Source of the DNA: an uncultured bacterium | GTDB taxonomy: Bacteria; Bacteroidota; Rhodothermia; Rhodothermales; Rubricoccaceae | Reading direction: 5' to 3' | Assembly (NCBI GenBank): GCA_947493945.1 | Contig: CANLSR010000001.1 | Coordinates: 248,001-312,000 of the forward strand | Length of the DNA stretch: 64,000 bases | In this document: piece after piece, positions 51,258-55,913 of the stretch | Position numbering within the stretch: the stretch's first letter is position 1 | Layout: each line of letters starts with the position of its first letter | Notes under the pieces: generated by a model | Databases searched by the model: none | Seen by the model: the letters and a program-made list of their open reading frames with translations, nothing else | Told to the model about the DNA's origin: nothing | Program-made: the position numbers and the translations under genes

Positions 51258-54179
51258 ATGGACCACCCCCACGCCTCCGCCGCCCGCCTCCGGCTCCTCT
51301 CCACCATCATCACGGGCAAGGGCCCGTTCCTGGACCGCGCCCGGGACGCGCTCCGGCTGACGGCCGACCTCATGGGCTACGAGATCGGCCTGATGAGCCA
51401 GGTGTCCGGCACCGACTACCTCGTGTCGGTGGCCCACGCGCCGGGCACCGAGATCACGGCCGGTTCGGTGTTCGACCTCCAGGACACCTACTGCGAGCTC
51501 ACGCTGGCCCAGGACGACCTGCTGGAGATCCAGCACGCCGAGCGGTCGCCCCACCGCCTCCACCCGTGCCACACGCTGTTCGGGCTCGAGAGCTACGTCG
51601 GCGTGCCCATCTGCATCGACGGCGAGGCGTGGGGCACGCTGAGCTTCTCGTCGTCGCAGCCGCTCGCAGCGGCCCTGGGCGAGGGCGACCACGACCTCGT
51701 CCGGCTGCTCGCGACCTGGATCGGGAGCGTCCTGGAGCGCGACACCCGGGACCAGCGGCTGGCCGAGGAGGCCGGCCGGCTCCACGCCATCGTGGACCAG
51801 GCCCCGATCGTCGTCTACGGCCTCGACGCCGAGGGCCGGTTCACCCTGTCCGAGGGTGCCGGGCTGGCCAGCCTCGGGCTGGAGCCGGGCGAGGTCGTCG
51901 GCGAGTCCATCTTCGACCTCTACGGCCACCTGGACGTGGCGATCGTGGCCATCCAGCGCGTGCTCGGCGGCGAGCCCCAATCGTGGGAGAACGTCAACGG
52001 ATCGGCCGTGTTCGTGAACAAGGCCCGCCCCGTCCGCGCCCCCGACGGATCGGTAAAGGGGCTGATCGGCGTCTCGTTCGACGTCACCGAGCAGGCCCGG
52101 GCGCGCGAGGCGCTGGCCGAGAGCGAGGCCCGGCTCCGCGCGCTCAGCGCGGCCTCGTTCGAGGGCATCGCGTTCACCGAGCACGGGCGGATCATCGACG
52201 GCAACGACCAGCTGGCCCGGCTGTTCGGCTACGACTGCGTCGCGGACCTCGTCGACGCCCCGGCCCAGCAGTTTGCCGCCCCCGAGTTCACCGACAAGGT
52301 GACGCAGATGATCCGCGACGGCAACCCCGACCCGTACGAGATCGCGTGCGTGCGCCGGGACGGGTCGCGGTTCTGGGCCGAGGTCCAGGGCCACCCGACG
52401 CCGTTCCACGGCCGGACGGTCCGCATGACGGCCGTCCGCGACGTCACGTCCCGCAAGCAGGCCGAGGAGCAGCGCCGCTTCCAGGCCGACGTGCTCGCCC
52501 ACGTCTCCGACGCCGTCGTGGCCCTCGACCTCGACGGCCGCGTCACCTACTGGAACGACGGCGCGGCGGCCCTCCACGGGCGGACCGCGAGCCAGGCGCT
52601 GGGCCGGCCGCTCGAAGAGGTCGTGACCTACCTCGGGGCCACCCTGGACGACTCGCCCCACGACCAGCCCGCGGAGGCCGCACTCCGCAGCGAGGCCGCC
52701 CGCAACGGCGAGCTGATCCTGGCCGGCCCGGACGGACGGCGCCGCTTCGTGTCGGTCTCGGTGAGCGTGCTCTGCGACGACCAGGGTACCGAGCGCGGCC
52801 TGCTCGCGGTCTCGCACGACGTGACGGCCCAGCGCGAGATGTCGGCCCGGCTGCGCCACCAGGCCAGCCACGACGCCCTAACGGGCCTCCCCAACCGCAC
52901 CCTGTTCCGCAAGCGGATCGCGGCGGCGCTGGCCAGGGACGCCCCGTTCGCCGTCCTGTTCGTGGACCTCGACCGGTTCAAGGTGGTCAACGACTCGCTG
53001 GGCCACGGCGCCGGCGACCGGCTCCTGACCACGGTGGCCCAGCGGCTGCGCCAAGCGTTCGGGCCCGTCAGAGGCGCCGTCGTCGCCCGGCTCGGCGGCG
53101 ACGAGTTCGGCGTGATGGCGCCCACCGCTCGCCTGGACCCCGAGGCGGCGGGGGCCACAGTGCTCCAGGCGCTCGCGCCGGCGCTCGACCTCGGGCCGCG
53201 GGCCGTCTCGCCCTCGGCCAGCGTCGGCGTGGTGGCGCACGCCGAGCGCTACGACGAGCCCGAGGCCATCCTGCGCGACGCCGACACGGCCATGTACGCG
53301 GCCAAGCACGGCGGCCGCGGCCGGCTCGCGGTCTTTGCCGAGGCCATGCACGAGCGGGCCGCGCTCCGCTTCGGCCTGGAGCACGACCTGCCCTACGCCG
53401 CCGGCCGAGGCCAGCTCCGCGCCTACTTCCAGCCCATCGTGGACCTCGACACCGGCCACGTGATCGGCTTCGAGTCGCTCATCCGCTGGGCGCACCCCGA
53501 GCTGGGCCTGCTCGCCCCGGGCCACTTTCTGCCGCTGGCGGAGGAGCTCGGCCTCGTCACCGACCTCGACCGCTGGATGCTCGACGCCACCTGCGCCGAG
53601 GTGGCCACCTGGGGCGCCGACGCGTTGGGGGCGCTCGCGCTGGTCAGCCTCAACTGCTCCGACCAGACGTTCCTGAGCGTCGGCCTGGCCGACTACGCCC
53701 GCGCCGCCGCCGACCAGGCCGGGCTGCCGCCGGGGTGCCTAATGCTGGAGCTGACCGAGCGCGCGCTGGTCGACATCGACCTGGCCCGGGAGGTCGTGGG
53801 CGCGGCGCAGCGCAACGGGATCCAGCTGGCCATCGACGACTTCGGCGCCGGCTACTCGTCGCTCGGGCTGCTGCACGCGCTGCCGGTGGACGGCGTCAAG
53901 ATCGACCGCACGTTCATCCGCGACCTGGAGGTCTCGCGGCCGGCGCGCGCCGTGGTCCGGGCCGTGGTGGGGCTGTCCGACGACCTGGGAATGCGGGCCA
54001 TCGGCGAGGGCGTCGAGACGCCGGAGCAACTCCGCGTGCTCCGCGAGGCGGGGGCCCGCCACGCCCAGGGCTACCTGTTCGCGCGCCCGGTGCCGGCCCA
54101 CCAAGCGCGCGCCATGCTCAAAGACCCGCCGTGGGCCGATTCCTGGGACGCCTGGACGCGCGACCTGGTCACCGCCTGA
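51258..54179 (+). CDS. GAF-PAS-PAS-PAS-GGDEF-EAL c-di-GMP signalling protein
   Basis: This 973-residue soluble sensor protein has an N-terminal GAF-like domain (about 10-160) and three PAS domains (about 172-285, 292-400 and 407-525). A diguanylate cyclase domain follows with intact GGDEF (613-617), then a phosphodiesterase domain. The latter's signature is ESL (739-741) instead of EAL, but the catalytic Glu is kept, with ELTE near 831, DDFGAGYSS near 860, the Lys in VKIDRTFI and a final QGYLFARP. No RxxD inhibition site precedes GGDEF. Both activities are plausible. The start is ATG 51258; no membrane helix is seen. It is the only c-di-GMP gene here. Confidence 0.93.
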   Translation: MDHPHASAARLRLLSTIITGKGPFLDRARDALRLTADLMGYEIGLMSQVSGTDYLVSVAHAPGTEITAGSVFDLQDTYCELTLAQDDLLEIQHAERSPHRLHPCHTLFGLESYVGVPICIDGEAWGTLSFSSSQPLAAALGEGDHDLVRLLATWIGSVLERDTRDQRLAEEAGRLHAIVDQAPIVVYGLDAEGRFTLSEGAGLASLGLEPGEVVGESIFDLYGHLDVAIVAIQRVLGGEPQSWENVNGSAVFVNKARPVRAPDGSVKGLIGVSFDVTEQARAREALAESEARLRALSAASFEGIAFTEHGRIIDGNDQLARLFGYDCVADLVDAPAQQFAAPEFTDKVTQMIRDGNPDPYEIACVRRDGSRFWAEVQGHPTPFHGRTVRMTAVRDVTSRKQAEEQRRFQADVLAHVSDAVVALDLDGRVTYWNDGAAALHGRTASQALGRPLEEVVTYLGATLDDSPHDQPAEAALRSEAARNGELILAGPDGRRRFVSVSVSVLCDDQGTERGLLAVSHDVTAQREMSARLRHQASHDALTGLPNRTLFRKRIAAALARDAPFAVLFVDLDRFKVVNDSLGHGAGDRLLTTVAQRLRQAFGPVRGAVVARLGGDEFGVMAPTARLDPEAAGATVLQALAPALDLGPRAVSPSASVGVVAHAERYDEPEAILRDADTAMYAAKHGGRGRLAVFAEAMHERAALRFGLEHDLPYAAGRGQLRAYFQPIVDLDTGHVIGFESLIRWAHPELGLLAPGHFLPLAEELGLVTDLDRWMLDATCAEVATWGADALGALALVSLNCSDQTFLSVGLADYARAAADQAGLPPGCLMLELTERALVDIDLAREVVGAAQRNGIQLAIDDFGAGYSSLGLLHALPVDGVKIDRTFIRDLEVSRPARAVVRAVVGLSDDLGMRAIGEGVETPEQLRVLREAGARHAQGYLFARPVPAHQARAMLKDPPWADSWDAWTRDLVTA

Positions 54180-54273: not shown

Positions 54274-55188
54274 TCACCCGCCGCCCAGCGCCTCCGCCAG
54301 CGCGGCGGCCTCGGCGCGGATGGCGTCGGCGCCCTCGACGGCGCGGAGCCAGTCCGGGGGGAAGACGGCGGTGCCGTGGAGCGCGCCCATCAGCGCGCCC
54401 ACGCAGGCGCCCACCGCCGCCGCGTCGCCGCCCACGTTGACGGCCGCCAGCAGCGTCGACTCCACCAGCGACGGCGAGCGGGCCACCATCGCGACGGCGA
54501 ACGGGAACGCCTCGTCGGCCGCCGACCCGGTCCCATTGCACAGGTCCTGGAGGTCCAGCGGGTAGTCGTCGAGGTGCCCCGCCAGCAGGCCCAGGCGCGC
54601 CGAGACGCGGTCGTCGGCGCCCAGGAGGCGCTCGCTGTCGCGTGCGGCCGAGACTGCCGCGCCCAGGACCTGGGCGCCCGAGAGCGCCTCGGGGTCCTTG
54701 CCCAGGCACGTGCGCAGGGCCGCGACCTGGGCCGCCGCCGCGACCGCCGCCGCCGGGTGCGGGTCGATGGACCGGAGCAGCATCGACGCCCAGCGCGCGC
54801 CGGCCAGGTCCGCCAGCCCGCGGAGCCGGGCCTGGACGCCCAGCGGCGCCGCCATCGCCGCGCCCGCGCTGCTCGGGCCGACCACGCCGCCCCGTCGGAG
54901 GTCGCCCTCGGGCGGCAACTCGGCCAGGAACGCCTGGCGGACTCCGTCGGGGCTGTCGGGCGCGCCGCTGGCGAGCGCCCGCGCCAAGGCGCGGGCGCGC
55001 TGGGTGTCGGCGGTCCACTGGCCCCGGCCCAGGTCGCCGCGCTTGTCGTCGGCCGCGAGGTCCTTGATCCCCTTGTAGTACGTGCGGACGTTCTGGTGGC
55101 TCAGGCCCTCGACGGGCATCCCGAGGGCGTCGCCCAGGGCGGAGCCGAGCAGGGTGGCGACCAAGCGGTCGTGGAACGGTGCGGGCAC
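54274..55188 (-). CDS. ADP-ribosylglycohydrolase (DraG) homologue with altered metal site
   Basis: This 304-residue protein has the DraG/ARH all-helical fold. GSALGDALGMPVEG (15-28) and GQWTADTQ (56-63) are the usual first motifs, but the metal-binding Asp-Asp pair is Ala-Asp (A60). The second metal motif, normally GGDTDT, reads GGDAAAVG (253-260), with the key Asp replaced by Ala257. Several metal ligands are therefore missing, and catalysis may be lost or changed. The start is GTG 55188. It is divergent from ccmB across 53 bases that contain face-to-face -7-like boxes. Confidence 0.85.
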   Translation of the reverse strand: MPAPFHDRLVATLLGSALGDALGMPVEGLSHQNVRTYYKGIKDLAADDKRGDLGRGQWTADTQRARALARALASGAPDSPDGVRQAFLAELPPEGDLRRGGVVGPSSAGAAMAAPLGVQARLRGLADLAGARWASMLLRSIDPHPAAAVAAAAQVAALRTCLGKDPEALSGAQVLGAAVSAARDSERLLGADDRVSARLGLLAGHLDDYPLDLQDLCNGTGSAADEAFPFAVAMVARSPSLVESTLLAAVNVGGDAAAVGACVGALMGALHGTAVFPPDWLRAVEGADAIRAEAAALAEALGGG

Positions 55189-55208
55189 GGGCGCGGGGGT
55201 TGGGGTCG

Positions 55209-55222
55209 GCGTGCTATCCTCC
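55209..55222. promoter_or_regulatory. Overlapping divergent -7-like boxes between DraG homologue and ccmB
   Basis: The minus strand reads TAGCACGC (55216-55209), 20 nt before the DraG-homologue GTG. The plus strand reads TATCCTCC (55215-55222), 19 nt before the ccmB ATG. The two boxes share one TA step. Both are weak matches to the consensus. Confidence 0.3.
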
Positions 55223-55241
55223 CCGGCTCCCCCCCGTTCCC

Positions 55242-55913
55242 ATGCGCTGGCTGGCCGGTACCCTGTCCGTCGTCGCCAACGACGCCCGCCTCGAACTCCG
55301 CACGCGCGTGGCCCTGAGCGGGCTGGGCCTGTTCGTGGCCGCGTCGCTGATCCTGGTGCGGATCGCCGTCCAGGGCGCGCCGACGGTGCCCGTCGCGGCG
55401 GCGCTGTTGTGGATCGTGGTCGTGTTCGCCGCGGCGGTCGGGCTGGGGCGCGCGTTCGTGGCCGAGGAAGAGCGCGGCACGTCGCTCCTGCTCCAGCTCC
55501 ACTTGCGGCCGAGCCAGGTGTTCGCCGGCAAGCTGGCGTTCAACGTGGCGCTGATGACGGCCGTGGTGGCCCTGGCCGCGGGCGGCTTCCGCATCCTGGT
55601 GCCCGTGCCGCTGGGCGCGCCCGGCGTGTGGGCCGCCGCGCTGGCGCTGGGCGCCGTCGGCATCGCCGGGACGACGACGCTGCTCTCGGCCTTGGTGGCA
55701 CGGGCACGGGCGGCCGGCCCGCTCCTGCCGGTCCTGGCGTTCCCGCTCCTCGTCCCGCTCCTCTACCCCGCCGTCGCCCTGACTGAGCTGGCCTCCGGCA
55801 GCGCCGCCGGCGTGTGGGACGCCGCCGCCGAGGACCTGACGCTGATGGCGTCCTACGCCGGGCTCCTGATCTCGGCCTCGTTCCTGCTGTTCGACTACGT
55901 CTGGCGCGACTGA
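55242..55913 (+). CDS. ccmB: Heme exporter protein CcmB
   Basis: This 223-residue membrane protein of cytochrome c maturation has about six helices. The conserved EEERGTSLLLQLHLRPSQVFAGK-like segment (about 75-95) is shared by CcmB proteins. CcmB pairs with the ATPase CcmA to drive heme attachment through CcmC/CcmE. No ccmA, ccmC or other ccm gene is in the window, which is unusual. ATG 55242 is chosen over the earlier in-frame codons because it gives the normal N-terminus. The gene ends convergent with the outer-membrane receptor gene. Confidence 0.88.
   Translation: MRWLAGTLSVVANDARLELRTRVALSGLGLFVAASLILVRIAVQGAPTVPVAAALLWIVVVFAAAVGLGRAFVAEEERGTSLLLQLHLRPSQVFAGKLAFNVALMTAVVALAAGGFRILVPVPLGAPGVWAAALALGAVGIAGTTTLLSALVARARAAGPLLPVLAFPLLVPLLYPAVALTELASGSAAGVWDAAAEDLTLMASYAGLLISASFLLFDYVWRD

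Follow-up and report, generated by a model that had tools for sequence, protein, structure and literature searches.

Does a gene with the signature of the ADP-ribosylglycohydrolases (ARH), but short of metal-binding aspartates, still encode an enzyme, does its product serve some other role, or is the gene being lost? The question is raised by one gene in the window, the whole 64,000-nucleotide stretch of Rhodothermales DNA analysed here. The features concerned, each with its basis, are:

54274 to 55188, minus strand: ARH-family (PF03747) pseudoenzyme candidate of 304 amino acids with a GTG start (PF03747 match, AF2 model and structural matches)

55063 to 55101, minus strand: codons 30-42, SHQNVRTYYKGIK, the segment after the Glu-flap (conservation lists)

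55006 to 55017, minus strand: codons 58-61 (W T A D) of the first metal motif, degraded here by Ala at residue 60 where Asp is expected (position from the ORF start at 55188 and alignment)

54412 to 54429, minus strand: codons 254-259 (G D A A A V) of the second metal motif, likewise degraded, with Ala in place of both Asp257 and Thr258 of intact members (position from the ORF start at 55188 and alignment)

55189 to 55241, no strand: the 53 bp that separate ARH from the divergent ccmB (ORF coordinates)

55242 to 55913, plus strand: ccmB, the divergent neighbour, a cytochrome c maturation / haem exporter membrane protein (PF03379, 6.7e-13)

The protein matches PF03747 (ADP_ribosyl_GH) over profile positions 2-286 of 287, scoring 106.5 bits against a cut-off of 26.2 (2.7e-30), and is the sole PF03747 match in its own assembly (3.77 Mb, 93.8% complete; E up to 0.001). 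It falls far below the cut-offs of the NCBIfam DraG equivalog TIGR02662 (58.7 vs 337.05 bits) and of the Tri1 ADP-ribosylarginine hydrolase NF041672 (32.6 vs 490 bits). An AF2 model built from six sequences (mean pLDDT 77.5, pTM 0.84, with low confidence at residues 27-57, which include the best-conserved segment, and at 95-103) is predicted to adopt the all-helical ARH fold, and this predicted model matches mouse ARH3 (2qty; rmsd 2.7 over 283 residues), MJ1187, ARH1 and DraG with VIA-align Z scores of 31.7, 30.4, 27.5 and 25.0, respectively. The profile match and the predicted fold bear out the first-pass annotation, which had called the gene an ADP-ribosylglycohydrolase homologue and had proposed a structural comparison with DraG.

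The binuclear metal site of an active DraG/ARH hydrolase is incomplete in the window protein. Its motifs read GQWTADTQ and VNVGGDAAAVG, and when the protein itself, together with its family profile, was aligned with DraG, the Thermus ARH and MJ1187, both motifs aligned without gaps, the first as TADT against TDDT in all three and the second as GGDAAA against GGDADT (DraG, Thermus) or GGDTDS (MJ1187). The ligands have therefore been replaced rather than displaced, and displacement, which the first-pass annotation had named as one finding that would overturn its reading, was rejected. That reading, of TADT and GGDAAAVG with at least two ligands lost and the fold motifs kept, agrees with what we find, as three of the seven ligand positions (E, T, D, D, D, D, T) are affected: the window protein lacks D60, D257 and T258 and keeps E27, T59, D61 and D255, with which it might still bind a single metal weakly. 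Sequencing error was ruled out because TADTQ and GGDAAAVG are identical in both same-genus homologues (G001, G003) and because the coding frame is under purifying selection (see below).

We take T258 to be the counterpart of ARH3 T317. Residues 60, 61, 255 and 257 were equated by motif, not by residue-by-residue alignment, with Asp77, Asp78, Asp314 and Asp316, the acidic ligands of human ARH3 as numbered in PMC8141533; the Glu flap residue is Glu41 in ARH3 (review PMC7050489). According to PMC8141533, each of the substitutions D77A, D78A, D314A and D316A abolishes the removal of ADP-ribose from serine, and D314A alone partly retains PAR hydrolysis. One such loss suffices to stop ARH3, and the window protein carries two.

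To place these losses we searched related genomes with a profile built from 16 homologues (A1). The subfamily occurs in 47/114 genomes of the order (E 1e-20) and, class-wide, in 49/244 (E 1e-30), the two extra ones belonging to one genus outside the order; an even draw across the phylum gave 20/395 genomes, none beyond the class. The branch has thus been found so far in Rhodothermales and one related genus, and the window gene has both its signature, SHxNVRxYYKGIK...GQWT..TQ, and its place divergent to ccmB. The f1 genomes G008 and G002, the latter a third member of the window's genus (81% complete, 750 contigs), gave no subfamily match. One row per genome was taken from the 49 genomes, and four contig-end fragments (L095-L098), whose motifs are intact wherever covered, were left out of the ligand count.

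In 33 of the 45 scorable homologues no ligand is missing, and the AAMR arginine, the THRHP histidine and every one of the 26 columns of the loop RRWG...RLAxG are in place as well. The other 12 are degraded: seven carriers of the window's family (f1), three of f10, G014 (f7) and G018 (f11). D60, D257 and the AAMR arginine are absent from 12/12 degraded rows, the window protein included, and present in 33/33 others. The degraded rows keep T59 in 12/12 cases, D255 in 8/12, E27 and D61 in 7/12 each and T258 in 5/12 (with Ser in one more), and position 257 is Asn, Ala or Ser in four rows each. Five of the 26 loop columns are filled in the window protein, 5-7 in 11/12 degraded rows and 19 in G014, and the THRHP histidine is lost in 10/12. 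Going by ARH structures, this loop, the arginine and the histidine would belong to the ADP-ribose site. Loop shrinkage, the loss of the arginine and the sharing of the loss by a lineage had all escaped the first-pass annotation, whose question of whether the altered residues recur in related genomes is answered in the affirmative by the 12/45.

The motifs form a graded series, from TSDT/GGDANT through TADT/GGDAAA to TRHT/GGAASA. The least degraded rows (G004, G005 and G007 of f1, and G014) have lost D60 and carry Asn at 257 and Thr or Ser at 258, keeping E27, T59, D61 and D255; the three f10 rows and G006, another f1 genome, have also lost E27, D61 and D255, and in G018 even the W of QWT is gone. 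A further scan of genome contigs returned two loci, duplicates of G006 and G007. A viral contig scan returned three ARH relatives (L099, L100 and L101), all with intact TDDT and GGDxDT and with a TDDTQ/SLPxSY signature resembling the window subfamily; a second viral scan found no ARH relatives.

E27, T59, D61 and D255 are all present in the window protein and in six further degraded rows, and could still serve an enzyme, be it a one-metal or metal-free hydrolase or a protein with another substrate or chemistry acting through E27, D61 and D255. The residual PAR hydrolysis of ARH3 D314A fits such an enzyme, and ARH3 D77A, D78A and D316A, nearly inactive, speak against it (PMC8141533). The Tyr of the GTGY segment, present in the canonical ARH rows L028 and L031 (GSGY in L030), is missing even in intact subfamily members, so the natural substrate may be unusual. 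However, the losses in the f10 rows and G006 leave no catalytic set common to the clade, and the AAMR arginine is gone throughout the degraded set; we consider continued catalysis distinctly unlikely.

The first-pass annotation had also offered a binding protein, a regulator or an enzyme with one metal or none. With 12/45 homologues degraded the evidence does point in that direction, but a role in binding ADP-ribose itself is weakened because segments that would line its site are lost (the AAMR arginine in every degraded row, the histidine in all but two, most of the loop in all but one). It is therefore very improbable, in our view, that loss of the first metal turned the eraser into a sensor that binds ADP-ribose tightly. 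The precedent would be ARH3 D77A, the equivalent of TADT, which loses MgA, is inactive and binds ADP-ribose 23-fold more tightly (PMC8141533), and G004, G005, G007 and G014 keep D255, Thr or Ser at 258 and an Asn at 257. The tight binding of D77A, however, involved Mg-B and a hydrogen bond to Asp316, whose equivalent is lost here, and D314A, which loses the other Mg, binds ADP-ribose 44-fold more weakly, f10 having Ala at that position (PMC8141533 for the ARH3 mutants).

Both catalysis and ADP-ribose sensing seem to us less likely than slow decay; what counts against sensing is the loss of D257, the arginine and the greater part of the loop. In slow decay the substrate or the transferase would have disappeared, the hydrolase would have become useless, and the gene would be on its way out without a new function, metal ligands and substrate loop being the first to go. 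We regard this as the main rival to a pseudoenzyme, although on balance as unlikely. The open frame extends across 291-313 codons in 12/12 degraded rows, which argues against decay, though GC-rich DNA easily keeps frames open; identity between the window protein and those of other f1/f10 genera is only 47-55%. In addition, 55 columns show no change among the 10 f1/f10 rows and reach at least 95% conservation in 31 intact rows of the order; another 57 are conserved to that degree in intact rows but vary among the 10 (some are 9/10). S30, H31, N33, R35, Y38, G40 and K42 belong to the 55, and the stretches kept include SHxNVRxYYKGIK after the Glu-flap, R98-R99 and PLDLQD...DE.

Substitution rates speak for both sides. 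Same-genus Nei-Gojobori dN/dS values lie well below 1, at 0.28, 0.41 and 0.33 within the window genus, 0.25 for G004/G007 and 0.26 for G017/G039 (dS 1.1), and in the three pairs checked the true frame had the lowest dN/dS of the six, followed by the -1 frame, which shares third positions. For decay, on the other hand, count the comparisons with ccmB, which is lower in each of the four same pairs (0.25, 0.17, 0.11 and 0.21 vs 0.28, 0.41, 0.33 and 0.25), and with intact homologues: at dS 0.3-0.9 the median dN/dS is 0.20 in intact pairs (49 pairs, range 0.06-0.47) and 0.59 in degraded pairs (17 pairs, range 0.25-0.77), 13 of the latter being cross-genus pairs whose dS we hold to be saturated by high GC. 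Same-genus values below 1, yet above ccmB and the intact median, point to a degraded gene under purifying but relaxed constraint. Hence what marks a pseudoenzyme, loss of catalytic residues with fold and gene under selection, is found here with selection that appears purifying but relaxed, and the product is probably a bacterial pseudoenzyme candidate of the ARH/DraG fold, judged from sequence to be inactive.

As the first-pass annotation had noted, the gene is next to ccmB, the PF03379 gene lying 53 bp away in divergent orientation. Each of the 15 ARH-less genomes examined has murB followed directly by ccmB on the same strand, the matches being 0-282 bp apart, and in carriers ARH sits antisense to murB and ccmB. 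Among 21 loci, ccmB is divergent beside ARH in 20, murB is convergent on the other flank in 16, and ccmC and ccmE follow ccmB in 16. A hand count from coordinates puts ccmB directly divergent to ARH in 44/47 carriers, the exceptions being G046 (ccmB elsewhere), G072 (on different contigs) and G080 (outside the ccmB search). Neither ccmC nor ccmE was found in the window or in the stretches taken from G003, G004 and G007, where ARH and ccmB are still together. Nor was murB found within the window, where a 973-aa GAF-PAS-GGDEF-EAL protein (51258-54179, plus strand), convergent to ARH, occupies its usual place.

Since ccmB is near universal (109/113 genomes) and ARH is found in 47/114, ARH is an optional passenger or accessory, and a functional tie to cytochrome c maturation was not adopted on the same ground. 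Vertical descent and a short divergent spacing can account for the persistence of ARH beside ccmB. That the cell can do without ARH is in keeping with slow decay, as is G008, a genome of the same genus as G005 in which murB and ccmB are adjacent with no ARH gene between them and in which no PF03747 match was found anywhere (E up to 1e-5).

Did the degraded form arise once? An ARH tree of 45 subfamily rows plus an outgroup unites f1 with f10 in a single clade (99/99) and puts G014 and G018 elsewhere with weak support, so that this tree by itself is compatible with a single origin; G018 is extremely diverged (branch 1.93), which together with its lost W also suits decay. Because the ligand-trait columns sit within the ARH tree, we built a second tree from the neighbour genes murB, ccmB, ccmC and ccmE. 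Its 36 genomes comprise the window, 20 of the remaining 46 carriers and 15 hand-picked of the 67 ARH-less genomes; the rows of the window and G007 are only 25% filled, and G018, G009 and G011 have long branches. Here f1 and f10 again form one clade (100/98), with G008 nested inside it at 100/100, and the degraded G014 is sister to the intact G027 (99/98); the placement of G018 is weak (44/15). Forcing all degraded genomes and G008 together is rejected (p-AU 0.0084; 0.019 without G018). The G014-G027 pair and this rejection argue that the degraded form arose at least twice, barring regain of ligands or movement of ARH independently of its neighbours, and each origin appears to have begun at the same two aspartates, D60 and D257.

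No ADP-ribosyltransferase had been seen in the first-pass annotation, which is true at most locally, as the window's genome (G000) has a DarT-type match on another contig (contig 16, 44001-44606, plus strand; PF14487, 1.3e-50). DarT was rejected as a partner transferase: it occurs in only 7/60 genomes and in 0 of the other 8 f1 genomes, and therefore does not track the degraded ARH. A DraG of a nitrogenase switch was also considered and rejected, a DRAT search having given 0 matches in 60 relatives, but the control genomes gave none either, so that this negative falls short of showing absence. Compensation by a second ARH was likewise rejected, as 7/12 degraded genomes, G000 among them, have no further PF03747 match (E up to 1e-5); the other five, G001, G003, G004, G007 and G014, have one elsewhere. 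Several f1 members other than the window genome carry a strong extra PF03747 gene (E 1e-65 to 1e-70), at C3:2162328-2163263 in G001, C1:658962-659888 in G003, C254:2666-3601 in G002 and C1:1117481-1118308 in G004.

Taken together, we favour, with moderate confidence, an ARH pseudoenzyme that retains a non-catalytic binding or scaffold role. The ancestor would have been a two-metal hydrolase whose gene lay between murB and ccmB on the opposite strand. The window's family together with a sister family, and at least one further lineage independently, lost D60 and D257 jointly; the AAMR arginine went too, as did a loop close by, in large part or partially, and the predicted helical fold stayed, as did a number of conserved residues. 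Hydrolysis of ADP-ribosyl bonds would thereby be gone, and the old cleft and its rim may bind a protein or a modified partner non-catalytically, as proposed for ADPRHL1. We prefer this reading because D60 and D257 separate the 12 degraded from the 33 intact rows and the corresponding ARH3 mutants D77A and D316A are inactive, and because of the 55 retained positions, dN/dS below 1, the repeated origin and the ADPRHL1 precedent. Against it stand the raised dN/dS, the absence of the gene from G008, the divergence of G018 and the four ligands left, and the retained residues may only keep the fold.

A wider reading, which we put forward as a rather doubtful extrapolation, is that this order made an ADP-ribosyl eraser non-catalytic at least twice by the same route, with Asp60 and Asp257 lost together, Asn at 257 in the least degraded rows and the substrate site lost afterwards. 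ARH would then be a fold that has moved more than once from enzyme towards binder or scaffold, each step being preserved in living intermediates, and the region between it and divergent ccmB might link ADP-ribose-type signals with cytochrome c maturation. Among the open-access literature matches listed, no title or abstract opening names a bacterial ARH pseudoenzyme, and searches of the open-access literature for ADP-ribosylglycohydrolase with pseudoenzyme, or with Rhodothermus, found none; the ARH pseudoenzyme that does surface there is the vertebrate heart protein ADPRHL1. The window subfamily would supply a bacterial counterpart, with intact same-locus homologues in other families and graded intermediates, so that what becomes of an ARH after metal loss can be tested on natural sequences and by simple genetics in bacteria. 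There is a warning for annotation as well, since the degraded genes match PF03747 and would readily be labelled ADP-ribosylglycohydrolase.

Finally, we compared the window protein with known systems. It shares with DraG, ARH1 and ARH3 the all-helical fold (Z 25-32), GDALG, the Glu-flap segment, T59, D61 and D255, and differs from them in lacking D60, D257, T258, the AAMR arginine and most of the RRWG...RLAxG loop. By sequence the closest solved structure is MJ1187 (PDB 1t5j; 9.4e-17, or 3.5e-33 with the profile), which likewise has a GTGxxxDExxP segment in place of GTGY but, unlike the window protein, retains TDDT and GGDTDS; to our knowledge it has no assigned substrate. As parts of large complexes, the ARH fold is found in ARHL of the Chlamydomonas Ycf2/Orf2971-FtsHi motor (8xks, 8xqw; Z 29.2) and in mt-SAF23 of a trypanosome mitoribosome assembly intermediate (6sga; Z 21.7), both of them, unlike the window protein, eukaryotic organelle proteins. 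Vertebrate ADPRHL1 (ARH2), the known ARH pseudoenzyme, also combines the ARH fold with lost metal aspartates: according to PMC4990356 and PMC7390403 three of the four are gone, namely the equivalents of ARH1 D56, D302 and D304, with D55 kept, and deletions of 1-4 residues in the old cleft stop heart chamber growth. The two proteins differ in that the window protein is bacterial and ADPRHL1 a eukaryotic heart protein, and in the Asp pair, of which the window protein is missing the first residue and retains the second while ADPRHL1 shows the reverse; their origins would be separate.
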